IMG/VR virus record: IMGVR_UViG_3300025769_000169
Location: 1 to 52,374 of that record
Direction: 5' to 3' (one strand)
Length of the DNA stretch: 52,374 nucleotides
From: a virus
A program made the translations under genes and the position numbers. The number at the start of each line of letters is the position of its first letter. The first letter of the stretch is position 1. The notes beneath the pieces are model-generated. The model worked only from the letters and a program-made list of their open reading frames with translations, did not search any database and was not told where the DNA came from. Of the stretch, positions 4,403 through 51,700 are shown in pieces.

Positions 4403-4410
4403 TATAAATA
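4403..4410 (+). promoter_or_regulatory. T4-type late promoter before gp18
   Basis: Perfect TATAAATA, the -10-like element read by the late sigma gp55 in T4-like phages. It sits 3 nt after the gp17 stop and 50 nt before the gp18 start, with no -35 box. gp55 itself is encoded at 17488-18036. Confidence 0.85.
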
Positions 4411-8721: not shown

Positions 8722-10494
8722 ATGTCTGTAACATTCACCCAATTAAAACAGACTATCAACCTCGCTGAAAAAGTTAAAGTAGACAGTGGCGAAAAGATAG
8801 TAAAGACCGATAAAGTAGGTCGTAAGAAGAACATCGAAGTTACTGTTACTACAAAAGGTGGTAAGTACTTTGTATACTTTGATAAAGAAAAGTATGCCGG
8901 TTCATATCGTAGTGAAAAAGATACAGACAAAATTATTGATGATTACTTGAAACTTGTGGGTGAAGAAGTTGAAGTAACAGAGCGTGAAGACACAGCATCG
9001 GCAGTTGCAAGAGCAATGAAAAAGATGGGCGTCAAATACGATAGAAAAAAAGAAGATGACATTATCAGTAAGATTCCCAAAGTGTTGGATTCAATGAAGT
9101 TATCCTCAGGCGCAAAAAGAATGCTAATGAGAGATAGAGATTTCATTGCTGATGTTTTAGGTGATTTGAATGAAGAGTTGCAAGAAAATCGTGCAAAGCG
9201 TGATGCGTTTAAAGCAATGGGTCGAAGAACAGGTAAAGACGCCGCAGACATCGATAACACTGCCACTGACGATGACAGAAAAGCGGCAGACAAAAATATT
9301 ATGATGCAATTAAGAAAAGCAGTATCACTTAGAGGCATGAAACCTATTGAGTTTGCTGATGGTAAAAAAGCAAAGGTTGATCCTAAAGTTGCTGATAAGT
9401 TACTTACAATGTATCAAGGTCTAAAACCAGCATCGAAAATGCAATTACAAACAGTACTTGCTAAATCAAAAAGAGATTTCGATAACGCAGTTAAACAACT
9501 AAAAATCAATGAGTACTTTGATGATAATATCAACGAAGGTAAAATGAAGCAGTTTCATATGATGATGGATTCTGGAAAGACTGCAGAACAAATTGCTAAA
9601 GCACTTAAACTTGATTTGAAATCAGTTAAAGAGTTGATGAAAGAAAGTGTAGAACTTATCGAAGCAGGTCTACCCCCACATCTTGCAAAACTATTTGATA
9701 AAGATGGTAACTTCAAAGACCCTAAGAAACAAAAAATCTTCAACAGAATGATGGGCGATGGTATCGGTAAAGAGATTGCTCAGAAGATGGGTCGTATTCA
9801 GTTTCGTGTAGATGCTGATAGCGCAAAGAAAAAAGTAAAAGTATATGTTGATAGTAATGATGAGAAAGATGCACAGAGAGCATTGAAAAATCATCCTGCT
9901 TACATTTCTGGTGCAATGAGAGTTATCCCAGAAGAAGTTGAACTTGATGAAGCACCAAAGATGAGATATGCTCTTGTTGGAACAGATATGAAAATCTATT
10001 CAATGGGTAGTGATGAGAGAGATTTGAGATTGGATCGCAGAAGTCTTGAAAAGCGTTTTAAAGATGTTGCACCACTAAAAATGGCAAGATTAAAAACTGC
10101 ACAAGCAATTGGTGACAAAGTAGATAAGTCACAACTCAAAGAAGAAGAAGAACTTGATGAAAGATTTACACCGAAGCAAAGAAAGATGGCGATTGGTGTA
10201 GCATCTGACAAGCGTTACAAAGGTGGTAACATGACAGGTGCAGTAAAAGCAATTGAAAAGATTGCAAGAGGTCTTTCAAAAGACAAGCAAGTTGCCGCTG
10301 TTCTACGCAGACAAAATGAAGATTTAAGTTTAAAAGATTTTTCTGAAAGAGAACTAACAACTGCAGAAAAAGATAAGATGAAGAAGTTGGAAAAAGAAGT
10401 GCCTATGAAAGACTTCACCGATAGATATGGTGAAGAAAAGGGTAAAGCAGTTTTTTATGCTACTATTACTAAGATGGCAAAAAACGAAGATTAA
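8722..10494 (+). CDS. Large modular prohead/internal head protein
   Basis: This 590-aa, Lys/Glu/Asp-rich, mainly helical protein sits in the prohead block. I recognise two modules seen in virion proteins of marine T4-like phages. One is at about 190-255 (MMQLRKAVSLRGMKPIEF then KVDPKVADKLLTMYQGLKPASK). The other is near 490-540 (ERFTPKQRKMAIGVASDKRYKGGNMTGAVKAIEKIARGL). It has several LxE tripeptides matching the gp21 cleavage rule, such as LIE before AGLPPHL, LDE before APKM and LDE before RFTP. A packaged, gp21-processed core protein is my inference. No membrane segment or enzyme motif is visible. An ACGGAG ribosome site lies upstream. Confidence 0.75.
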   Translation: MSVTFTQLKQTINLAEKVKVDSGEKIVKTDKVGRKKNIEVTVTTKGGKYFVYFDKEKYAGSYRSEKDTDKIIDDYLKLVGEEVEVTEREDTASAVARAMKKMGVKYDRKKEDDIISKIPKVLDSMKLSSGAKRMLMRDRDFIADVLGDLNEELQENRAKRDAFKAMGRRTGKDAADIDNTATDDDRKAADKNIMMQLRKAVSLRGMKPIEFADGKKAKVDPKVADKLLTMYQGLKPASKMQLQTVLAKSKRDFDNAVKQLKINEYFDDNINEGKMKQFHMMMDSGKTAEQIAKALKLDLKSVKELMKESVELIEAGLPPHLAKLFDKDGNFKDPKKQKIFNRMMGDGIGKEIAQKMGRIQFRVDADSAKKKVKVYVDSNDEKDAQRALKNHPAYISGAMRVIPEEVELDEAPKMRYALVGTDMKIYSMGSDERDLRLDRRSLEKRFKDVAPLKMARLKTAQAIGDKVDKSQLKEEEELDERFTPKQRKMAIGVASDKRYKGGNMTGAVKAIEKIARGLSKDKQVAAVLRRQNEDLSLKDFSERELTTAEKDKMKKLEKEVPMKDFTDRYGEEKGKAVFYATITKMAKNED

Positions 10495-10532: not shown

Positions 10533-10889
10533 ATGGCAATAGGTCAACAATTTCTAAAGGTCACCAAAACGACTAATGTAGTCAGTGTGACAGGAGGAGC
10601 GGGAAATACTACTATCGATATTGATGGTGCTTCATTTCTTGTGACAAACCAAACTGCTTCATCACCTACAGTTGGTATTAAAGAAATCTACTGGTCAGGA
10701 GATGTAGTTATTGAGAGTGCTACAACCGGAACTGTAAAATTTGATAGCGGTGCAACTGGTACATCAGGTCATTGGATTTTACCTGCACTAGAAGTTACAG
10801 ATAGTGATGAAGATATTAAAGTGACTATCACAACAGGCGGCACCGCAGTTCTAGTGCTTAAAAAATTAACAGGTTATGCAGGTATCTAA
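10533..10889 (+). CDS. Small beta-rich structural candidate, paralog of 1724-2095
   Basis: The 118-aa protein is rich in Thr, Gly, Val and Ser with alternating hydrophobic pattern, suggesting an all-beta fold; no signal peptide or membrane helix is seen. Its C-terminal half resembles that of the 123-aa protein at 1724-2095, ending VLVLKKLTGYAGI versus VTITLKKVSGFTQL. It is the first gene after a perfect late promoter and lies directly before the prohead protease, so a virion role such as decoration or internal head protein is likely but unproven. The start has AAGGG about 10 nt upstream. Confidence 0.7.
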   Translation: MAIGQQFLKVTKTTNVVSVTGGAGNTTIDIDGASFLVTNQTASSPTVGIKEIYWSGDVVIESATTGTVKFDSGATGTSGHWILPALEVTDSDEDIKVTITTGGTAVLVLKKLTGYAGI

Positions 10890-10890
10890 C

Positions 10891-11538
10891 ATGAAACTGA
10901 TTAGAGAAGAAATTTCAGACGCTAACTTTCTCGTAGAAGAGAAGGGTGGCGCAAAACAATATTTCATTGAGGGCGTGTTTATGCAATCCGACCTCAAGAA
11001 TAGAAACGGTCGAGTGTATCCGAAGTCAGTTATGGAAACTGAAGTTAAGAGATATACAAAAGAAAATATCGACCGCAAACGTGCGTTTGGTGAGTTGGGT
11101 CATCCTGATGGTCCGACAATCAATCTTGAAAGAGTATCGCACATGATTACAGAATTGTCAATGGATGGTTCTAATGTCATGGGCAAAGCAAAAATTATGG
11201 ATACTCCATACGGTAAGATTGTTAAGAATTTGATGGATGAGGGCGCTACATTGGGGGTATCTTCTAGGGGAATGGGTTCGCTTAAAGCGGGTCGTTCAGG
11301 TGCCCAAGAAGTGCAAGGTGATTTTTATCTTGCAACCGCCGCCGACATTGTTGCAGACCCATCTGCTCCTGATGCTTTCGTAAATGGCATCATGGAAGGC
11401 GCAGAATGGATTTGGGATAATGGCATCATCAAAGAAGTGAATATCGAAAGATATAAGCAAGACATTGCTAAAGCAAAACTTAATTCTTTACAAGAAGCAA
11501 AGTTAAATGCATTTAATAATTTCTTGTCAAAACTGTAA
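10891..11538 (+). CDS. gp21: Prohead core protease gp21
   Basis: This 215-aa serine protease cleaves the scaffold, core proteins and capsid precursors after Glu in (L/I)xE sites during head maturation. The sequence shows FMQSDLKNRNGRVYP near 30-44, the catalytic His in ELGHPDGP (His71) and the Ser in GVSSRGMG (Ser124/125), followed by LATAADIVADPSAPDAF. These are the hallmarks of the T4 gp21/U9 protease family. An ATG at 10876 in the same frame lies inside the upstream gene; the ATG at 10891 gives the usual KLIREE N-terminus. T4 gp21 is 212 aa. Confidence 0.93.
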   Translation: MKLIREEISDANFLVEEKGGAKQYFIEGVFMQSDLKNRNGRVYPKSVMETEVKRYTKENIDRKRAFGELGHPDGPTINLERVSHMITELSMDGSNVMGKAKIMDTPYGKIVKNLMDEGATLGVSSRGMGSLKAGRSGAQEVQGDFYLATAADIVADPSAPDAFVNGIMEGAEWIWDNGIIKEVNIERYKQDIAKAKLNSLQEAKLNAFNNFLSKL

Positions 11539-11550: not shown

Positions 11551-11578
11551 TTAGACAAACAAATAAGGAGTGTCCAAC

Positions 11579-12877
11579 ATGTCTGTAGAAGATAAAATTA
11601 AAGAATTGCTTGAAGCATCAATGCACGAAGCAACTGCTCCTGGAAAGGGTGGCGGTAAAGCAGACCCTATGCCTAAGTTAGATGCAGATGCAGACGGTAA
11701 GGTAGATGATACCGGTGCCGCTGTTGTATCACCAGACGATAAGAATGGTCCTGCTGAAGTGACTAAGAAAGTCAAGAAAGCGGCAGTTCCAGGTGGTGAA
11801 GCAAACAAGGGTGAGCAGTCAATCAAACCAGGTGCTACACCTGTTAAAGAAGAAGATGAAGAAGACGAAGATTTAGAAGTAGTCTCTGAAGAAGAAGTCG
11901 CGGAAGGCGAAATGCCACCTGCCCTCAAAAAAGCAATGGACGCCAAAAAGAAAAATGGCGAAAAGGATATGGATGAGGAAGATGACGAAGACGAGTCCGA
12001 TGACGATGACGATGACGATGAAGACGAAGATGATGACAAAGAAATGGAAGAGATGAAGAAAAAACTTCATGCTCAAGTCGATAAGATGAAAGAAATGAAG
12101 CATATGAAAGCATCTTATGGTTACATGAAGTCATCATACGCCGCGAAGAAAGAAGATGTAGATATGTCAGATGACGTAAATGCATTGACTGAAGGCGGTG
12201 AGTTCGATGCTGAATTCAAAGCAAGAGCAAAGACTGTATTCGAAGCGGCAGTAAACTCTAAAGTTGCTGATAAGATTGTCGAACTTGAAGAGCATTACGA
12301 AACACAAATCGATGAAGAGACTGCAAAGATTGCAGAAGATTTGACAGATAAGGTTGACACATATCTTTCATATGTTGTCGAGCAGTGGTCTAAAGACAAT
12401 GAACTCGCTGTTGAGCGTGGTCTCAAGTCTGAAATCACAGAAGACTTTATCGTATCACTGAAGAAAGTTTTCGAAGAGCATTACATTGATGTTCCAGAAG
12501 ACAAGTATGATGTGGTAGCAGAACAGCAAGATAAGATTGCAGAACTTGAGCAAAAACTCAATGAGCAAATCGAAGCAAATGCTGAAACATCTAAGATGGT
12601 AAACGAAGCAAAGAAGCAAGTTGCTATCGAGGAATCTGCAAAAGATTTGACTGATACTCAAAAAGAGAAGTTCTCTGGTCTTGTAGAAGGTCTTGAGTTC
12701 TCAGATGAGGAATCATTTGCAAAAGAATTGGAAACACTCAAGGAGAGTTACTTTCCAAAGATTGCCAAAACAATCGAAGAGGATGAGGTTGCTGTAGATG
12801 AACTTACAGAAGCAGTCAACTTAACCAGTGAGATGAAAGACTACGTTTCTGCAATCTCCAGAACAGTGGGCAAATAA
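11579..12877 (+). CDS. gp22: Prohead scaffold core protein gp22
   Basis: This 432-aa protein is the main internal scaffold of the prohead, digested by gp21 before DNA packaging. The N-terminal SVEDKIKELLEASMHEATAPGKGG is typical of marine gp22. It is followed by a very acidic region (about residues 85-160 with long Asp/Glu runs), then long coiled-coil helices and a C-terminus ending in DYVSAISRTVGK. T4 gp22 is 269 aa; the extra length comes from the acidic insert, usual in marine relatives. An in-frame ATG at 11570 is possible, but AGGAG at 11566-11570 fits the start at 11579. Confidence 0.92.
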   Translation: MSVEDKIKELLEASMHEATAPGKGGGKADPMPKLDADADGKVDDTGAAVVSPDDKNGPAEVTKKVKKAAVPGGEANKGEQSIKPGATPVKEEDEEDEDLEVVSEEEVAEGEMPPALKKAMDAKKKNGEKDMDEEDDEDESDDDDDDDEDEDDDKEMEEMKKKLHAQVDKMKEMKHMKASYGYMKSSYAAKKEDVDMSDDVNALTEGGEFDAEFKARAKTVFEAAVNSKVADKIVELEEHYETQIDEETAKIAEDLTDKVDTYLSYVVEQWSKDNELAVERGLKSEITEDFIVSLKKVFEEHYIDVPEDKYDVVAEQQDKIAELEQKLNEQIEANAETSKMVNEAKKQVAIEESAKDLTDTQKEKFSGLVEGLEFSDEESFAKELETLKESYFPKIAKTIEEDEVAVDELTEAVNLTSEMKDYVSAISRTVGK

Positions 12878-44065: not shown

Positions 44066-44479
44066 ATGTTAGTAGTAGATGTAGTCGGTAGTAATAAAAC
44101 GAAGCGCGATATTGCTTATAATGTCGTGCATTTCATGTTGCAAAAACTACTACCTAGATTGCGTAATATTGAAATTGAAGTCAAGTTCAGTAAAATGACC
44201 GATGATGCAGTAGGTTACTGCATGATGCTAGATAACAATCGTGAGTATCAATTAGAAATATCAAGAGACCTTAACATAAAAGAACTTGTTATGACTATCT
44301 GTCATGAGATGGTGCATGTCAAGCAGTATGTTCGAAATGAAATGAAAGAAGGTCAGATGGTTTGGAAGAAAAGACCAGTTGCTTCAGATACGAAGTATTA
44401 TGACCTACCTTGGGAAAAAGAAGCATACGCAATGCAAGCATCACTTGCAAAAGCATGTTGGAATAAAGGAATCTTTTAA
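44066..44479 (+). CDS. SprT-like zinc metallopeptidase
   Basis: The 137-aa protein has TICHEMVHVKQY with HExxH at His80-Glu81-His84 and a later acidic segment DLPWEKEAYAMQ that could give the third ligand. The size and motif match SprT-like/minigluzincin proteases of phages. Possible substrates include DNA-protein crosslinks, by analogy with Spartan-type proteins, but this is inference. It follows a strong promoter, and its stop overlaps the next start (TAATG). Confidence 0.75.
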   Translation: MLVVDVVGSNKTKRDIAYNVVHFMLQKLLPRLRNIEIEVKFSKMTDDAVGYCMMLDNNREYQLEISRDLNIKELVMTICHEMVHVKQYVRNEMKEGQMVWKKRPVASDTKYYDLPWEKEAYAMQASLAKACWNKGIF

Positions 44480-45681
44480 TGTCATTACTCCCACTAGGTG
44501 AGTTTACAAAATATGGTATTGAGCGACCACAGATATTGATGGAAAAACTTTTTCTGTTGAATGGTCGCTCAAACACTATTCATACACCAGATGGTACTTT
44601 CGAATTAGATGGTATCATTATCAATGGTAAAGAAACCCTACGAACACCTAGTTCGATGCCAAGTCTGGCAGATGAACTTGCTAGAGAGATTGCAAGTTTC
44701 AAAGATAATACTGCTGGACAAAAAGTAGAACTTAAAGGTAAATATACCGGACAAGAGAGAACTACTATCATTGGTATTGGTAAGATGACTAAGACTGAAG
44801 AGTTTGGTGGACAACCTGCCGGCGGAAAGAAAGAAAATAAAGGACTGAAGTTTGAGCGTGACTTAGCAAACTCACTAGTGAATTACGCAAATGGAATAAA
44901 AGAGTCCACAGACACACATGCTAAACTAGCACATGAATTAATGTCTGCAGTGTGTAAGCAGAACCGTTCACCAGTAAAAGAAATTAAGCAGATGGGCGGT
45001 GCTAACGAAAGTCGCCCATTCGTTATGATGAACGGTAAAGTCGCAATCGGACCAGGTAATCCTGCAGACGTTGGTAAAAAGTTGACTGATATAACAGTCT
45101 TTCATTCTGATAGAACTGAGAGTTATCTATCAGCAAAGTTTTCAAGCACATTGACATTTGTTAATACTGGTGTAAAAGGTGCTGGTAAACCATTCACTGA
45201 AGCAGAAGTAAAAGCAGGAATGATTACAAACGATATGGGTAAGCAATTACTCAAAGCACTTGGTATTGATAATGCAACATTCTGTGCAGTATTTAATCTA
45301 TATGGAACTGGACAGAAAGCGGCAACGCCTCATGTGGTTGATGTGACTTCCGCTGTTGACAAACCACTTCTAACAAATCTACTCATGTCTGCTATCGGCG
45401 CAAACTACTGGATGGTTCATGGACAAGGCGGCGGTAAAGCATATTGTTGGTGGGTAGGAACAGAACAAAATAAAAAGTATGCGAATATCAATGCATCTAA
45501 GTTTACTTTATATTATGGTGGTATCACAAACGGTACAGCAAAACGTATTGATATGAAGTTCTCAAACTCGTACTTTGATTTTAAACTAAATATAAGAAAT
45601 AAACAGGGAGGGATAGCACCAACTCACTTCTTATTGGACTATACGTCAAAAGAAGCGACAGGCAAGAAGTTACTAGGATAA
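44479..45681 (+). CDS. Possible PD-(D/E)XK-type nuclease
   Basis: I do not recognise a named family for this 400-aa protein. A central segment LTDITVFHSDRTESYLSAKFS has the spacing Asp ... Ser-Ala-Lys seen in some PD-(D/E)XK active sites, with a preceding helix that includes GLKFERDLANSL (Glu candidate). The N-terminal 100 residues look separate (PLGEFTKYGIERPQI, then FELDGIIING). The end (FDFKLNIRNKQGG) is a beta region. It lies between a metallopeptidase and a KxDG nucleotidyltransferase-like gene, which together suggest DNA or RNA processing. Confidence in nuclease function is low. Confidence 0.5.
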   Translation: MSLLPLGEFTKYGIERPQILMEKLFLLNGRSNTIHTPDGTFELDGIIINGKETLRTPSSMPSLADELAREIASFKDNTAGQKVELKGKYTGQERTTIIGIGKMTKTEEFGGQPAGGKKENKGLKFERDLANSLVNYANGIKESTDTHAKLAHELMSAVCKQNRSPVKEIKQMGGANESRPFVMMNGKVAIGPGNPADVGKKLTDITVFHSDRTESYLSAKFSSTLTFVNTGVKGAGKPFTEAEVKAGMITNDMGKQLLKALGIDNATFCAVFNLYGTGQKAATPHVVDVTSAVDKPLLTNLLMSAIGANYWMVHGQGGGKAYCWWVGTEQNKKYANINASKFTLYYGGITNGTAKRIDMKFSNSYFDFKLNIRNKQGGIAPTHFLLDYTSKEATGKKLLG

Positions 45682-45737: not shown

Positions 45738-45765
45738 TTGACTTTTACCGAAAGTGTGTTATAGT
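45738..45765 (+). promoter_or_regulatory. Sigma70-type promoter giving a leaderless message
   Basis: TTGACT (45738-45743), 16-bp spacer, TATAGT (45760-45765), behind an A-rich block. The ATG at 45772 falls where transcription would start. A weak TGTGA/TCACA repeat lies upstream at about 45685. Confidence 0.75.
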
Positions 45766-45771
45766 ATAAGC

Positions 45772-47016
45772 ATGATTAGTTTTAAGAAACATACAGAACA
45801 GTTGTCAGAAAACCGCAATACGCATCTGACACATATCGAAGAAACCATTATCACTGATGGTGCTAGTGGTGCAGAAAATGCTATTAACTTCCTGAAAGAA
45901 GTTCGTAACATGCTATCAAGTAATGTTCGAACTGGTGTAAACATCACTACTAAATGGGATGGTGCACCTGCTATTTTCTGTGGTGTCGACCCAGAAGATG
46001 GTAAGTTCTTTGTTGCGACTAAATCAGTTTTCAATGCAAGTCCTAAGTTAAACAAAACGAGTGCAGATATTAAAAAGAACCACCAAGGTGGTCTTGTCGA
46101 AAAACTTGAAGTTGCACTTAAAGAATTGTCTACGTTAGGTATCAAAGGTGTCATTCAAGGTGACATGATGTATACAAAAGCAGACTTGCAGACTAAGACA
46201 ATTGAAGGTGAAGAGTATATTATCTTTCAACCTAACACAATTGTCTATGCTATTCCTAAGAACGGACCTCTTGGTAAGTTTGTTTCTAAAACAAAAATGG
46301 GTATTATCTTTCATACAGAGTATAAAGGTAAGACATTACAGACGATGAAAGCATCGTTTAATATAAATATAAGTAAGTTGAGAAAAACGAAGACAGTTTG
46401 GTTCGATGATGCCTCATATAAAGATGTTTCAGGCACAGTTACACTAACTAAAGATGAAACCGAAAATCTCAATGGTTACATCGAACGGATTGAAAGTCTT
46501 CTACCTAAAGTGTCTAGTTATCTAGATAAGATGGCAGGTGACTTTGATGAAAAGAACCAATTCGCTATTCCAACTAACTTTAAGGTTCATCTGAACTCAT
46601 ACTTCAGAAGTACCGATGATTTACCTGACAGTAACACTATGGTTGCTGACTTTAAGACTTATTGGACTACTAAGTTAGACAAGAAGATTGAAAGTGTAAA
46701 ATCAGAAGGTGCTAAAGAGAAGTATACTGAGATTAAGAAAGATGGACTGAATAAGATTGAAAAGCAAACTGCAGATTTGCAGAATGCTACTTTATTGTAT
46801 AACTATATTATGGACGCTAAGAATGTATTGGTGCAGAAATTGTCGAAAGTGAAATCTATTGGGACATTTCTGAGAACAAATGATGGATTAAAGACCACAG
46901 AACCTGAGGGGTTTGTGGCAGTGGACAGATTAAAGGGTAATGCAGTTAAACTAGTGAACCGCTTAGAGTTCAGTCGTGCTAACTTCACTGCCGCTAAAAA
47001 TTGGGTGAAAAAATGA
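45772..47016 (+). CDS. KxDG nucleotidyltransferase-fold protein (DUF6267-like)
   Basis: The 414-aa protein has TTKWDGAPAIFCG with Lys61-Trp-Asp63-Gly64, the KxDG motif I of ATP-dependent DNA/RNA ligases and capping enzymes. It is followed by KFFVATKSVFN, IKGVIQGDMMYT (position of motif III) and EYIIFQPNTIVYAI (motif IIIa-like). Later motifs IV and V are not clear, so ligase activity is uncertain; the C-terminal 170 residues are helical. I recall this family as DUF6267 in marine phages. An upstream GTG at 45754 would lie within the promoter, so 45772 is preferred. The stop overlaps the next start. Confidence 0.72.
   Translation: MISFKKHTEQLSENRNTHLTHIEETIITDGASGAENAINFLKEVRNMLSSNVRTGVNITTKWDGAPAIFCGVDPEDGKFFVATKSVFNASPKLNKTSADIKKNHQGGLVEKLEVALKELSTLGIKGVIQGDMMYTKADLQTKTIEGEEYIIFQPNTIVYAIPKNGPLGKFVSKTKMGIIFHTEYKGKTLQTMKASFNINISKLRKTKTVWFDDASYKDVSGTVTLTKDETENLNGYIERIESLLPKVSSYLDKMAGDFDEKNQFAIPTNFKVHLNSYFRSTDDLPDSNTMVADFKTYWTTKLDKKIESVKSEGAKEKYTEIKKDGLNKIEKQTADLQNATLLYNYIMDAKNVLVQKLSKVKSIGTFLRTNDGLKTTEPEGFVAVDRLKGNAVKLVNRLEFSRANFTAAKNWVKK
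46362..46369 (+). promoter_or_regulatory. Possible internal late promoter within the KxDG gene
   Basis: A perfect TATAAATA followed by TAAGTAAG, the same 15-base run as at the late promoter at 10500. It is coding, so may be chance, but it would place virion-type genes from 47013 on under late control. Confidence 0.4.
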
Positions 47017-49871
47017 CACTAAAGTTTAATGAACTTCAGCAAAGACTGAAGGAAGCAAAAGAGAAAAAAGTTGTATTCTCATTCGGTAGAATGAATCCTC
47101 CTACTATTGGACATGAGAAACTTGTAAACAAAATCAAATCAGAAGCAAAGACGCGAGGCGCCGATGCCCGTCTTTACTTGTCTCATACAAGCAACAAAGA
47201 AAAAGACCCTTTGACTTATAATAGTAAAGCAAAGTATGCTAAGAAAGCATTCGGCATTTTTGTGAAGTCGAGAGCAAGAACAATTATAGAAGTTGCAAAA
47301 GAATTAGAAGCAGATGGTTACACTGATATTGTATTAGTATTTGGTGAAGACCGCGATGCTGAGATGGTCAATCTCATTAAGAAGTACAATGGAAAAGAAT
47401 TCAATTTTAACTCAATCGATTCCGTCTCTGCTGGCAAGCGTGACCCTAATGCAAAAGGTGTTGAAGGTATCTCTGGTACTAAGTTGCGTGAACTTGCGAA
47501 GACTGGTCAACTTGATACGTTTAAGAAAGCACTAGCATCTAAACTATCAGATAGAGAAAAGACTGCAATCTACAACGAAATTCGCAAAGTGTATTCTATC
47601 AGTGATAGTGCAATTTTTGACAGAGATGAATTGCGTGAAGCATATTTAGTTGGTGAACTCTTCAACGTAGGCGATGTAGTCTATGATATGAATGAGAACA
47701 AAGAATACGAAATTGTAGAACAAGGTACAAACTTCTTGTACTGCAAAGGAGCAGATGGTAATGTACATACAAAGTGGTTATCCGACCTTACAGAAAAGAA
47801 ATCAGCGAAAGACGATGACACCGAAGTTAGACAAGATAAAGATATCGCCGATAAAGACGGTACACAACCAGCAAAATACTTTGCAGGACTCAAGTCCAAG
47901 TCTACCAAATCTGCCAGAGATGCACATTTCAAGAAGGGCGCAGAGAAATCAGATGACGACCCAAGTGCTTACAAACCAGCACCTGGAGATGCTACAGCAA
48001 AGACAAAACCTTCAACGCACACTAAGAAATTCAAAGCGATGTTTGGTGAAACACTATCTTTCAAAGAGCATCAGCAGTTAGATGAGATGCCACGGTGGTT
48101 GACTGACCTATTAGGAACATATACTAATCAGCGTGGTTACGATAAAGCACAGCAATTATTACAGCAAATCTTAGACCGCAAAGCAAAAGAAGCAGGTGGT
48201 ATGAAGAAGTTGAAGCATGACCCTGCATATTATGCCGCTGTTGTTGCTAAACAGATTAAAGGTATTGATGCAAGAGTTCTTGCTAGACTAGTATCAGAAC
48301 AGACACTTGCAGAAGCGGCAGAGGTTGCATTTGAAGTAGAGATTGAAGATATCGGTACAATGCTAGTTGCTGGTGCAAATAAGCAAGAAGTCAAACAGCG
48401 TCTTCAGAAGATGTTCAGAGATGCAAGAAAGTTTTCTATTGGTAAGCGTCTGATGGACCCACAGATTAAGATGTGGTATCGTTCCAAAGCAGGTGATAAA
48501 CCACAAGTTGATGAAAGTCGAATTACACATGCTGAAGAAGATGGGTTGCGTGAATTCTTGCGTAAGAAAAAGCAACCAGTAAAGCAGAGTCCTATTCAAA
48601 AAGTACTATCAAATATTGAAACTAACAGAGATAAAAGACCAAAAGATGTTAAGTTAGATGGTGGTAAAGTTGTTAAAGTTACACCTGAAGTTGCTAGAGA
48701 ACTTATGAAGTTTGTAAACAAGAAAAATGCTGAAGGCGATAAAAGATTTGATTTATCGAAGTTTGATGTATTTTCTAAAGTTATGAAGCAACTTAATTTT
48801 CCTATTACAGTTCGTGAAGAACTTGAATTGGATGAAGAGTGGAACATCGATTTATTTTTAGAAGATACTGAACAAGTTGAAGGTGATGATGACGATGCAT
48901 TAGCAATAGAACTTGAAAAGATAATTGATGCATATAATGAAATCGAAGATTTGCCTGATTTGTATCCAGACTTGGATAATGATGGTGACCACGATGACGA
49001 TGATGAAGAATTGCGTATCAATCGTGATGGCGAAGAAAAAGGTGTTATTGATGATAACTACAAATGGGTGAATGAAGTTCTAACACCAGCGCAGAGATTT
49101 AAGCGCAGTCAACAAATGCGTAGACTAAAAGGTAAGATTGCAAGAGCAAGAAAAATTGCGCTGAAAAGACCGTCTTCACCTGAGAAGTTACAGTCAAGAG
49201 CGCAACGTCATGCTAGAAATCTTATTCGTAAAAAATTCATTAAGGGTAAGAACTATAATGAGTTGAGTTTTGCAGAAAAGCAAGCAGTAGAAAAAAGAAT
49301 GCAAGGTAAAGGCGCACTGATTAATCGTATTGCTATGCGTGTGAAACCCAAACTAAAGAAACTAGAACAAGAAAGATTACGCAATCAGAATACACAGGAG
49401 TCCAGACTGATAGAGGCAAATGAATATCGTGTGGGTTCTGAGATGTATTACGAGACATTCAATGAATGGAAAAAATCTATTGATAGAAGTGATTTAGATA
49501 GTTTCGACAGAGAGTTGCTTGAGAGTGACATTGGTTCATTTGCAATGTATGAAGGTAATCATGTACCACTTGACTGTCCAATGATGGAAGAAGAAAAGCA
49601 ACCCGAATTAAACAAACCTAAAGCAGGTGGACCTAAGAAGTACTATGTGTATGTGAAAGACCCATCATCTGGTAATATCAAAAAAGTCAGTTGGGGTGAT
49701 ACTACTGGTCTGAAGATTAAACTAAATGATCCAGAAGCAAGAAAGTCATTCGCCGCACGACATCAATGTAGCACTAAGAAAGACAAGACAAAACCCGGTT
49801 ATTGGGCGTGTCGTATGCCTTATTATGCAAAGCAGTTAGGATTATCTGGTGGCGGAAACTTCTTCTGGTAA
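47013..49871 (+). CDS. NMNAT-like nucleotidyltransferase fused to virion modules
   Basis: The 952-aa protein starts with a nucleotidyltransferase domain (1-about 210). GRMNPPTIGH (25-34) is the GxxxPxTxGH motif and ISGTKLRE (153-160) the IS(x)TxxR motif of NMN/FAD-type adenylyltransferases. The rest is a mosaic I associate with T4-like virion proteins. It has LDE and LAE sites fitting gp21 cleavage, an acidic PDLDNDGDHDDDDEE patch and a basic LTPAQRFKRSQQMRRLKGKIARARK module (about 690-790). The C-terminus is YYVYVKDPSSGNIKKVSWGD ... CSTKKDKTKPGYWACR, a DUF5872-like module. So it may be packaged and injected. ATG 47013 overlaps the previous stop (ATGA). Confidence 0.82.
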   Translation: MTLKFNELQQRLKEAKEKKVVFSFGRMNPPTIGHEKLVNKIKSEAKTRGADARLYLSHTSNKEKDPLTYNSKAKYAKKAFGIFVKSRARTIIEVAKELEADGYTDIVLVFGEDRDAEMVNLIKKYNGKEFNFNSIDSVSAGKRDPNAKGVEGISGTKLRELAKTGQLDTFKKALASKLSDREKTAIYNEIRKVYSISDSAIFDRDELREAYLVGELFNVGDVVYDMNENKEYEIVEQGTNFLYCKGADGNVHTKWLSDLTEKKSAKDDDTEVRQDKDIADKDGTQPAKYFAGLKSKSTKSARDAHFKKGAEKSDDDPSAYKPAPGDATAKTKPSTHTKKFKAMFGETLSFKEHQQLDEMPRWLTDLLGTYTNQRGYDKAQQLLQQILDRKAKEAGGMKKLKHDPAYYAAVVAKQIKGIDARVLARLVSEQTLAEAAEVAFEVEIEDIGTMLVAGANKQEVKQRLQKMFRDARKFSIGKRLMDPQIKMWYRSKAGDKPQVDESRITHAEEDGLREFLRKKKQPVKQSPIQKVLSNIETNRDKRPKDVKLDGGKVVKVTPEVARELMKFVNKKNAEGDKRFDLSKFDVFSKVMKQLNFPITVREELELDEEWNIDLFLEDTEQVEGDDDDALAIELEKIIDAYNEIEDLPDLYPDLDNDGDHDDDDEELRINRDGEEKGVIDDNYKWVNEVLTPAQRFKRSQQMRRLKGKIARARKIALKRPSSPEKLQSRAQRHARNLIRKKFIKGKNYNELSFAEKQAVEKRMQGKGALINRIAMRVKPKLKKLEQERLRNQNTQESRLIEANEYRVGSEMYYETFNEWKKSIDRSDLDSFDRELLESDIGSFAMYEGNHVPLDCPMMEEEKQPELNKPKAGGPKKYYVYVKDPSSGNIKKVSWGDTTGLKIKLNDPEARKSFAARHQCSTKKDKTKPGYWACRMPYYAKQLGLSGGGNFFW

Positions 49872-50121
49872 ACCCTACACCGATAGAGGAGATGAACGTA
49901 TTTTCAGCGAAGATGTTGAAGATGCAGAGTTGATTTGGCATAGGGATAAATACAATAGAGAGATAACAATTTTAGAAGGTGAAGGGTGGAAGTTGCAGTT
50001 AGATAATCAACTACCTGAAGAACTGATAAAAGGAAAGATTTATAAGATACCAGCATTAGAGTATCACAGAGTAATAAAAGGAAAAGGAAATCTTAAAATA
50101 AAGATTTGGGAAGATAAATGA
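49849..50121 (+). CDS. Small cupin-like protein
   Basis: The 90-aa protein contains ELIWHRDKYNREITILEGEGWKLQLDNQLP ... KIPALEYHRVIKGKGNLKIKI, a conserved short protein of marine T4-like phages with a cupin-like beta pattern (His in WHRD and YHRV). Function unknown. The best start is GTG at 49849, overlapping the upstream gene by 23 nt; no in-frame ATG exists before the conserved core. It overlaps the next gene by 4 nt. Confidence 0.65.
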   Translation: MAETSSGKPYTDRGDERIFSEDVEDAELIWHRDKYNREITILEGEGWKLQLDNQLPEELIKGKIYKIPALEYHRVIKGKGNLKIKIWEDK

Positions 50122-50702
50122 CAGATAAAACAATTTACAAATCAATGCGTCAGACTATGGATGAAATGTACTCAGAAGAAATGACTGAGAGTGCAGAAGC
50201 AGGTCTGAAGAAAAAGGCAGACAAGTCTGGTATGCCTCTTGGTGTATTGAAGAAAGTATATGATAGAGGAGTTGCCGCTTGGAAAGGTGGTCATCGTCCA
50301 GGTACCACTCCACAACAATGGGGTATGGCGCGAGTTAATTCATTTGTCACTAAATCTTCTGGTACATGGGGTAAAGCAGATGCAGACCTTGCTAGAAAAG
50401 TACAAGGAGAAGAGTATGTGCCTGAACAAGATGAACCAGCATCACCAGATGAAAGTTCAATGGCGATGCAACAGTTAAAGTTCATGGCGTATGCCGCAAA
50501 TGAAATTATGGACCACATTAAGAATGGTGGCGAGTTTCCTGAGTGGATGCAAAATAAACTATCAGCAACGCATGAAGATATGAAATCACTTCATGCTAAT
50601 ATCGACCATGATAAAGTCGAAGCAGTAAGTCCCGCACAACAAGCGGCAATCGCAATCTCTAAAAAAGAGCGTGGCGAGAAACCTAAAGGAGAAAAAAAAT
50701 GA
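50118..50702 (+). CDS. DUF5824-like virion module protein
   Basis: The 194-aa protein carries GLKKKADKSGMPLGVLKKVYDRGVAAWKGGHRPGTTPQQWGMARVNSFV, which I recognise as the DUF5824-type module found in virion or prohead proteins of marine T4-like phages. The C-terminal SPAQQAAIAISKKERGEKPKGEKK is a second short module. In other phages these modules are joined in larger proteins; here they stand alone. The gene overlaps its neighbours by 4 nt, so it belongs to the late module cluster with 47013. Confidence 0.75.
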   Translation: MTDKTIYKSMRQTMDEMYSEEMTESAEAGLKKKADKSGMPLGVLKKVYDRGVAAWKGGHRPGTTPQQWGMARVNSFVTKSSGTWGKADADLARKVQGEEYVPEQDEPASPDESSMAMQQLKFMAYAANEIMDHIKNGGEFPEWMQNKLSATHEDMKSLHANIDHDKVEAVSPAQQAAIAISKKERGEKPKGEKK

Positions 50703-51181: not shown

Positions 51182-51700
51182 ATGATTACATTAAAGCAGT
51201 TTGAACAAAAAGGACAAGCGAAGATATTCTTAGACATGGATGGAGTTTTAGCAGACTTCATTAAAGGTGTCGCTGACACTACTGGAGAAGATTTTACATC
51301 ACCCGATTTGAATAATAAAGGTAAAGGTAAAATCAAAGCAGAAATTGAACAGAATCCTCGCTTCTGGCATGAGTTAGACTGGATGCCAGGCGGTCAACAA
51401 CTGTATCGTTATGTCAAATCTAGTCAACCTCATATCTTGTCTGCTTATGCAAACTGGGATAAAAACTGCAAAGATGGTAAGAACTTCTGGATTAAAAAGA
51501 ATTTGATGATACCGAAGCAACGCATAAATCTTGTCAAACGAGAAGACAAACAGAAATACGCAGTGCAAGATGGTATTGCAAACATATTGATTGATGATTA
51601 TATCAAAAATATTCGTGAATGGGAAGCGGCAGGTGGTATAGGTATTCATCACACTGACGTTAAAAGAACTATAAATACTTTAAAGAAACACGGTTTCTAA
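51182..51700 (+). CDS. HAD-superfamily phosphatase, 5'-deoxyribonucleotidase-like
   Basis: The 172-aa protein has the HAD nucleophile motif FLDMDGVLADF (Asp18, Asp20), a WMPGGQQLYRYV segment, and LIDDYIKNIREWEAAGGIGIHH, the fourth motif and flap of 5'(3')-deoxyribonucleotidases. Such enzymes dephosphorylate nucleotide monophosphates; phage versions may tune nucleotide pools. Size fits the family (about 170-200 aa). A perfect late promoter for the next gene lies in its last codons. Confidence 0.78.
   Translation: MITLKQFEQKGQAKIFLDMDGVLADFIKGVADTTGEDFTSPDLNNKGKGKIKAEIEQNPRFWHELDWMPGGQQLYRYVKSSQPHILSAYANWDKNCKDGKNFWIKKNLMIPKQRINLVKREDKQKYAVQDGIANILIDDYIKNIREWEAAGGIGIHHTDVKRTINTLKKHGF
51670..51677 (+). 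promoter_or_regulatory. T4-type late promoter for the 182-aa structural gene
   Basis: Perfect TATAAATA inside the end of the HAD gene, 47 nt before the ATG at 51724, followed by an AGGAGA ribosome site. Confidence 0.8.

Follow-up and report, generated by a model that had tools for sequence, protein, structure and literature searches.

The 52,374-nucleotide stretch of viral DNA analysed here (IMG/VR record IMGVR_UViG_3300025769_000169, positions 1 to 52,374; hereafter called the window) contains an open reading frame (ORF) of 952 residues at 47013-49871, which starts with an ATG at 47013 and has its stop codon ending at 49871 on the plus strand. The gene belongs to a marine T4-like phage and raises the question of whether such a phage could deliver a nucleotide-metabolic enzyme into its host together with its DNA. 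The original prediction for this ORF, made from the DNA letters, was a nicotinamide mononucleotide adenylyltransferase (NMNAT)-like enzyme fused to virion modules, which would be packaged, cut by the phage protease gp21 and act on NAD pools, possibly against NAD-depleting defences. Our analysis points to a head-packaged, injected nucleotidylyltransferase of the NadD/NadM/CoaD superfamily, with N-terminal targeting like that of the T4 internal proteins (IPs) and a modular tail. We assign this reading a probability of roughly two in three. The coordinates of the relevant features are collected in Table 1.

The nucleotidylyltransferase core and its family

The assignment of the N-terminal part to the HIGH adenylyltransferase superfamily is firm. 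Residues 8-274 matched PHROG 3041 'cytidyltransferase' (E 4.9e-70) and PHROG 395 (E 6.6e-51). All 60 aligned orthologs matched Pfam CTP_transf_like (best E 5.4e-9), and the window protein by itself matched this profile weakly (E 0.012). An AlphaFold model was limited to residues 1-356 (the full-length alignment put the tail module M6 in the wrong place). It had a mean predicted local distance difference test (pLDDT) score of 81, with values mostly above 90 in the core, and its best Foldseek match in the PDB was the nicotinate mononucleotide (NaMN) adenylyltransferase 8aih (E 2.8e-6, probability 1.00). A profile search of the PDB with the enzyme alignment gave no meaningful match. The predicted adenylyltransferase domain with intact GxxxPPTxGH and ISGTxxR motifs was thus borne out by PHROG, the Pfam matches of the orthologs and AlphaFold/Foldseek, as were, by the length of the ORF, the approximately 740 residues beyond residue 210. 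Since 24 core positions, including the catalytic motifs, were invariant over 59 diverse sequences, the core looks active. The small beta-strand domain that follows it may, judging by its appearance, be KOW/SH3-like.

A tblastn search with the enzyme matched 535 phage records, mostly from phages of Synechococcus, Prochlorococcus and other Kyanoviridae, with some jumbo phages. The window core is homologous to the Kyanoviridae cytidylyltransferase family (T4-GC190, PHROG 3041/395) and carries its GRxNPPTxGH and S..K.R motifs. The family locus has a conserved order: polymerase, recombinase and helicase come first, a variable gene and DUF6267 follow, and the enzyme stands ahead of several mosaic genes. 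In the window the enzyme likewise lies 3' of the helicase and adjoins a DUF6267-type gene. In cyanophage S-SCSM1, the gene 5' of the enzyme is not DUF6267. The cyanophage members examined have 360-410 residues, and long forms occur in a pelagiphage, in methylophilales phages and in uncultured viruses. Within this enzyme family, whose association with virions is already known, the window gene is a heavily fused variant, set apart by its long, shuffled C-terminal mosaic.

Virion association and a probable N-terminal targeting signal

Published proteomics place orthologs of the enzyme in virions. Particles of S-SM1 contain the 'citidylyltransferase' T4-GC190 (PMC3037559; 2010), encoded by SSM1_190, which is orthologous to the window core (36.5% identity, E 1.4e-52). 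S-SZBM1 virions contain gp140 together with the next gene product, gp139 (PMC9146016; 2022). ORF91 (NMNAT) of S-SCSM1 was detected in virions (PMC9602691), and the annotation of this phage lists the products of genes 89, 90, 91 (NMNAT), 92, 93, 95 and 97 as virion proteins. By annotation, ORF154 of S-CREM2 is a virion 'cytidylyltransferase' (PMC10665884; 2023). For S-CBWM1, another phage with a reported virion NMNAT, a search run without a positive control found no member of the enzyme family. The predicted packaging is therefore well supported, but the idea is not new, as an injected NMNAT role had already been proposed in these cyanophage virion papers.

T4 internal proteins carry N-terminal propeptides of 10-19 residues, which direct them to the prohead and which gp21 cleaves off after L/I-X-E (PMC9026906). 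A comparable signal was found ahead of the enzyme core, where 33 of 44 orthologs contained (L/I)xE, with 7.0 ± 2.1 expected from shuffled sequences. In the window protein the site is LKE at residues 12-14, a position conserved in the family, and it ends a peptide within the 10-19 residues of T4-type internal proteins. The window copy, MTLKFNELQQRLKE↓A (the arrow marks the presumed cut), is a looser version of the tag, and its nearest orthologs keep LKE↓A and LHE↓A. The start of S-SM1 gp190, MKKFSAFLNE↓A, resembles the capsid-targeting sequence of T4 IPIII, MKTYQEFIAE↓A.

A strict IPIII-like pattern was defined by an aromatic residue near position 4, a hydrophobic residue before LxE and the E at about position 9-10; it was composed after some N-termini of the family had been seen. 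As the sequences are related and not independent, shuffle comparisons of this kind overstate significance and are not to be taken as probabilities; read in this way, the pattern was present among the fetched viral contigs in 25 of the 110 enzyme ORFs, where 0.2 would be expected, in 54 of the 120 DUF6267 ORFs (expectation 0.1) and in 35 of the 875 remaining ORFs (expectation 1.1). These 35 included P-loop kinases, one nucleotidyltransferase of the pol-beta type and some copies of the enzyme or DUF6267 missed by the motif filter. A stronger argument than the excess over shuffles is the specificity of the pattern in T4 and S-SZBM1: between 60 and 108 kb of T4 it picked out ipII and ipIII only, and in the S-SZBM1 genome only gp140 (the enzyme), gp191 and gp192. 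Between 60 and 100 kb of S-SCSM1 it found ORF91 (NMNAT) and one internal frame. All three virion-detected orthologs with a readable N-terminus matched (S-SZBM1, S-SCSM1 and, by eye, S-SM1). A non-exhaustive literature search found no published report of a T4-type tag in cyanophages. The apparently new element is that the enzyme family and its neighbours carry a T4-type capsid-targeting signal, which would provide a concrete route into the head.

Such N-termini were also seen in other genes. The small genes gp191 and gp192 of S-SZBM1 (OL473597 122311-123125) adjoin a virion protein gene, begin with MKSFKSFLSE and MKTFKQYITE, and are candidate internal head proteins. Eight P-loop kinases near the locus in relatives also start in the T4 manner, for example with MKSFEQILSE↓GLYDPGIFKAFFLAGGPGSGK, and the one that was tested, L124, was zeta-toxin/PNK-like.

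With respect to gp21, the original prediction was right that a site of the prohead-protease type matters, but this site is conserved in the N-terminal peptide before the core and not at the LDE/LAE sites proposed in the tail. The tail contained 8 (L/I)xE sites, with 7.6 ± 2.4 in shuffles, and we rejected these as gp21 sites. The scaffold ORF at 11570-12877 is rich in (L/I)xE, with 34.5 sites per 1000 residues versus about 14. Weaker (L/I)xE sites at the core/KOW and KOW/tail borders exceeded shuffles in the family, and cleavage there might also release the enzyme domain.

Several observations weigh against an injected enzyme. The N-terminus of the window protein fails the strict pattern, a strict scan of the window came out empty, and a typical site is missing from the ortholog in HTVC008M. 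When any LxE with cleavage at residues 8-19 was accepted, 7 of 29 virion proteins and 27 of 186 other proteins of S-SZBM1 matched (p 0.18); it is only the stricter, T4-like pattern that separates, and not the loose LxE. The virion evidence concerns short-tailed orthologs of other phages, from which we infer packaging of the window protein by analogy, and the proteomics authors themselves caution about carry-over after CsCl purification. The operon is preceded by a promoter of early (sigma-70) rather than late appearance. Finally, the modelled core does not separate the substrates, as the CoaD, NadD and NadM folds were nearly tied by VIA (Z 14.5, 13.5 and 13.0; 12.5-14.5 overall).

The carry-over caveat and the sigma-70-like promoter would suit an ordinary early metabolic enzyme that works inside the cell and was detected in virions through contamination or non-specific binding to particles. 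The same is true of the location of the gene in the replication/metabolism region, 3' of polymerase, recombinase and helicase, and of the few enzyme peptides (2-3) in two virion studies. However, the enzyme was detected independently in virions of several phages, often with direct neighbours, and the family has T4-type capsid-targeting N-termini much more often than chance would give; both make this explanation unlikely.

The promoter is shared by close relatives, three of which have TTGACA or a TTGACA-like box followed by TATAAT shortly 5' of the ATG. This suggests a leaderless early transcript of the DUF6267-enzyme operon and, if that holds, the longer, GTG-started DUF6267 ORF from 45754 would be wrong. 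The late-promoter motif TATAAATA occurred at 8 sites in the window, compared with 4.15 expected, several of them just 5' of virion genes. None lies immediately 5' of the enzyme operon and one lies inside DUF6267 at 46362, which is not decisive. The sites at 4403, 10500, 11543, 12882 and 51670, all on the plus strand, are directly 5' of ORFs, several of which are head or virion genes.

The composite tail and the neighbouring genes

The tail is a mosaic of exchangeable modules. In iterated profile searches, module M3 matched 64 nucleotidylyltransferase ORFs and 3 others; M6 has its counterpart in the stand-alone gene gp17 of Melnitz, and M8 in the stand-alone gene gp131 of HTVC008M. The order and number of modules vary among uncultured relatives. 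The window protein reaches 952 residues, as compared with 360-410, because modules that are separate neighbour genes elsewhere are fused in it.

The original prediction had described these modules as typical of T4-like head proteins. None of the modules tested was found in any other ORF of the window by iterated profile search, and the tails of only three relatives shared segments with the head-cluster ORF at 8722-10494 (L023, L151 and L034, with E values between 1.4e-9 and 2.3e-5, the middle one 3.6e-6; a reversed control was empty). The label 'head-protein modules' is therefore weakly supported. M8 was also considered as a head marker and rejected: small pelagi- and roseophages have a copy directly 5' of terminase, among non-structural genes. 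It is conceivable that the whole protein has a structural role in the head or core and that its enzyme domain is a relic, as it has a long mosaic tail of modules that are separate neighbour genes in relatives, some of them shared with the head-cluster ORF. The invariance of the core and its catalytic motifs renders this highly improbable.

The DUF6267 protein encoded immediately 5' of the enzyme contains the conserved motifs KWDGAPA, QGD, EGFVAV and KLV (K-W/Y-DGAP, QGD, EGxV and KLV in homologs). By these motifs, segments of it resemble covalent nucleotidyltransferases (ligases), and it may be an uncharacterised member of that group. Its AlphaFold model (mean pLDDT 76, with a poor C-terminus) had no match in the PDB, nor did a PDB profile search with the DUF6267 alignment give a meaningful one. 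A ligase assignment by fold was accordingly dropped, and the resemblance stays a motif-level lead. In Pseudoalteromonas phage XG4, DUF6267 occurs without the enzyme nearby.

The adenylyltransferase, DUF6267 and co-packaged kinases could together serve nucleic-acid end repair or modification, or recycle nicotinamide mononucleotide (NMN) for a NAD-using ligase, instead of acting on NAD pools. The overlap of the DUF6267 and enzyme genes and the ligase-like motifs would fit such a role. So would targeting-like N-termini on zeta/PNK-like kinases, a pol-beta-type nucleotidyltransferase and, weakly, a KptA-like protein in the same neighbourhoods, and the inclusion of a P-loop kinase in one enzyme protein, L063. 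Yet the DUF6267 model lacks a PDB fold match, the protein is missing from those reported for S-SZBM1 virions, S-SCSM1 has a different gene in its place, and the KptA-like match reached only E 0.03. We consider this alternative improbable, about on a par with the intracellular enzyme. The single polypeptide of L063 has a NadR-like combination of parts, not that of a demonstrated NadR.

The locus in the window is flanked by genes for a SprT-like protein (44066-44479), a PHROG 8438 protein of unknown function (44479-45681) and a 5'-nucleotidase (NT5C; 51182-51700).

Table 1. Positions of the promoter, protein domains, tail modules and related genes in the window.
Feature	Position	Strand	Basis or remark
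Sigma-70-like promoter, TTGACT..TATAGT	45738..45766	+	Ends ~5 bases 5' of the DUF6267 ATG at 45772
DUF6267 protein, 4-base overlap with enzyme gene	45772..47016	+	Pfam E 1.8e-115
Mosaic protein with N-terminal HIGH-superfamily nucleotidylyltransferase	47013..49871	+	Relatives annotated 'cytidyltransferase'
Capsid-targeting-like propeptide, residues 1-14, MTLKFNELQQRLKE, with (L/I)xE↓A just 5' of core	47013..47054	+	Ortholog alignment
Nucleotidylyltransferase core, residues 17-197	47061..47603	+	AlphaFold pLDDT mostly >90; VIA; 24 invariant columns
GRMNPPTIGH, HIGH motif, residues 25-34	47085..47114	+	G25, R26, N28, P29, T31, G33 and H34 invariant
ISGTKLR motif, residues 153-159	47469..47489	+	S154 and R159 invariant
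Small beta-strand domain, residues 205-262	47625..47798	+	Predicted strands; conserved in orthologs
Tail module M3, residues 272-347, GTQP.KY..GL..STK..R..HFKKGA...APGD...KTKPS.HTKKFK.MFGE	47826..48053	+	Iterated profile
Tail module M4, residues 355-428	48075..48296	+	Iterated profile
Acidic segment with LDNDGDHDDDD, residues 600-685, isoelectric point (pI) 4.1	48810..49067	+	
Tail module M6, residues 686-793, very basic, pI ~11.9	49068..49391	+	Iterated profile; relative gene
Tail modules M7/M8 (SFAARHQC...GYWACR), residues 796-952	49398..49868	+	Iterated profile; relative gene
DUF5824 module, own gene in window	50118..50702	+	Fused to enzyme in HTVC008M and Melnitz
Head-cluster ORF between portal and head protease	8722..10494	+	Segments common to tails of related enzymes
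Head maturation protease, gp21-like, presumed processing enzyme	10876..11538	+	PHROG 207 E 2.9e-82

Substrate, proposed mechanism and known systems

From the model, adenylyltransferase activity on NMN or NaMN is plausible. The predicted NMNAT-like character held for the HIGH-superfamily fold, with a NadD-type enzyme as the top Foldseek match, but the near tie in VIA does not establish NMNAT specificity. NADases that release nicotinamide and ADP-ribose leave NMNAT alone without a substrate. A nicotinamide phosphoribosyltransferase (PF04095) turned up in just one of eight related genomes, that of DLP_6, and was not found in the window, which is a 52-kb fragment. Phages with NadM have been reported always to carry NadV (PMC9503650). 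These points weaken the proposed action against NAD-depleting defences by rebuilding NAD+, despite the top match to a NaMN adenylyltransferase, the NadM-type NMNATs in the VIA list and the known occurrence of phage NAD+ salvage (PMC9503650). We judge such an anti-defence role less probable than either of the two functional alternatives above.

For the injected nucleotidylyltransferase we propose the following course. During head assembly, the T4-IP-like N-terminal peptide would direct the protein into the prohead core, and the phage head protease would cleave on the C-terminal side of the (L/I)xE that immediately precedes the enzyme core. The protein would then enter the cell together with the phage DNA and adenylylate a small-molecule mononucleotide at time zero, most likely NMN or nicotinate mononucleotide. 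The tail, a patchwork of exchangeable modules of which one is very basic, may bind DNA or core proteins.

More tentatively, marine T4-like phages may carry a whole capsid-targeted cassette, made up of the adenylyltransferase, a possibly ligase-like DUF6267 protein, zeta/PNK-like kinases and other nucleotidyltransferases. Marked with a T4-IPIII-type tag, it would be injected as a time-zero kit for the metabolism of nucleotides or nucleic acids, with module shuffling giving rise to giant fusions like the window protein. A conserved, readable tag would allow marine phage proteins that are injected with the DNA to be predicted from sequence. Where so far an enzyme has been noted only loosely in virions, such a tag would offer a delivery route that experiments can test directly, and this in viruses that are among the most common in the ocean. 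The internal-protein system of T4, with its small accessory proteins, would then extend to metabolic enzymes as well.

Among known systems, the cyanophage T4-GC190 proteins (S-SM1 gp190, S-SZBM1 gp140 and S-SCSM1 ORF91) share the core family and the neighbourhood of helicase, mostly a DUF6267-type gene, enzyme and mosaic genes; they have 360-410 residues and the strict targeting peptide, whereas the window protein has 952 residues and a loose one. With T4 IPII/IPIII and Alt it has in common an N-terminal propeptide ending in (L/I)xE and presumed head targeting and ejection. The T4 IPs are small and unrelated to it in sequence. Alt is likewise an injected, NAD-linked enzyme, but it is a NAD-consuming ADP-ribosyltransferase and not an adenylyltransferase. 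NadM, NadR, NadD and CoaD share its HIGH-superfamily fold and motifs, although the window protein has no nudix or ribosylnicotinamide kinase domain and is too distant for a PDB profile match. Phage NAD+ salvage of the KVP40 type (NadV with NadM or NadR) may share the NAD+-forming step with it, but no NadV gene was detected in 7 of the 8 related genomes.

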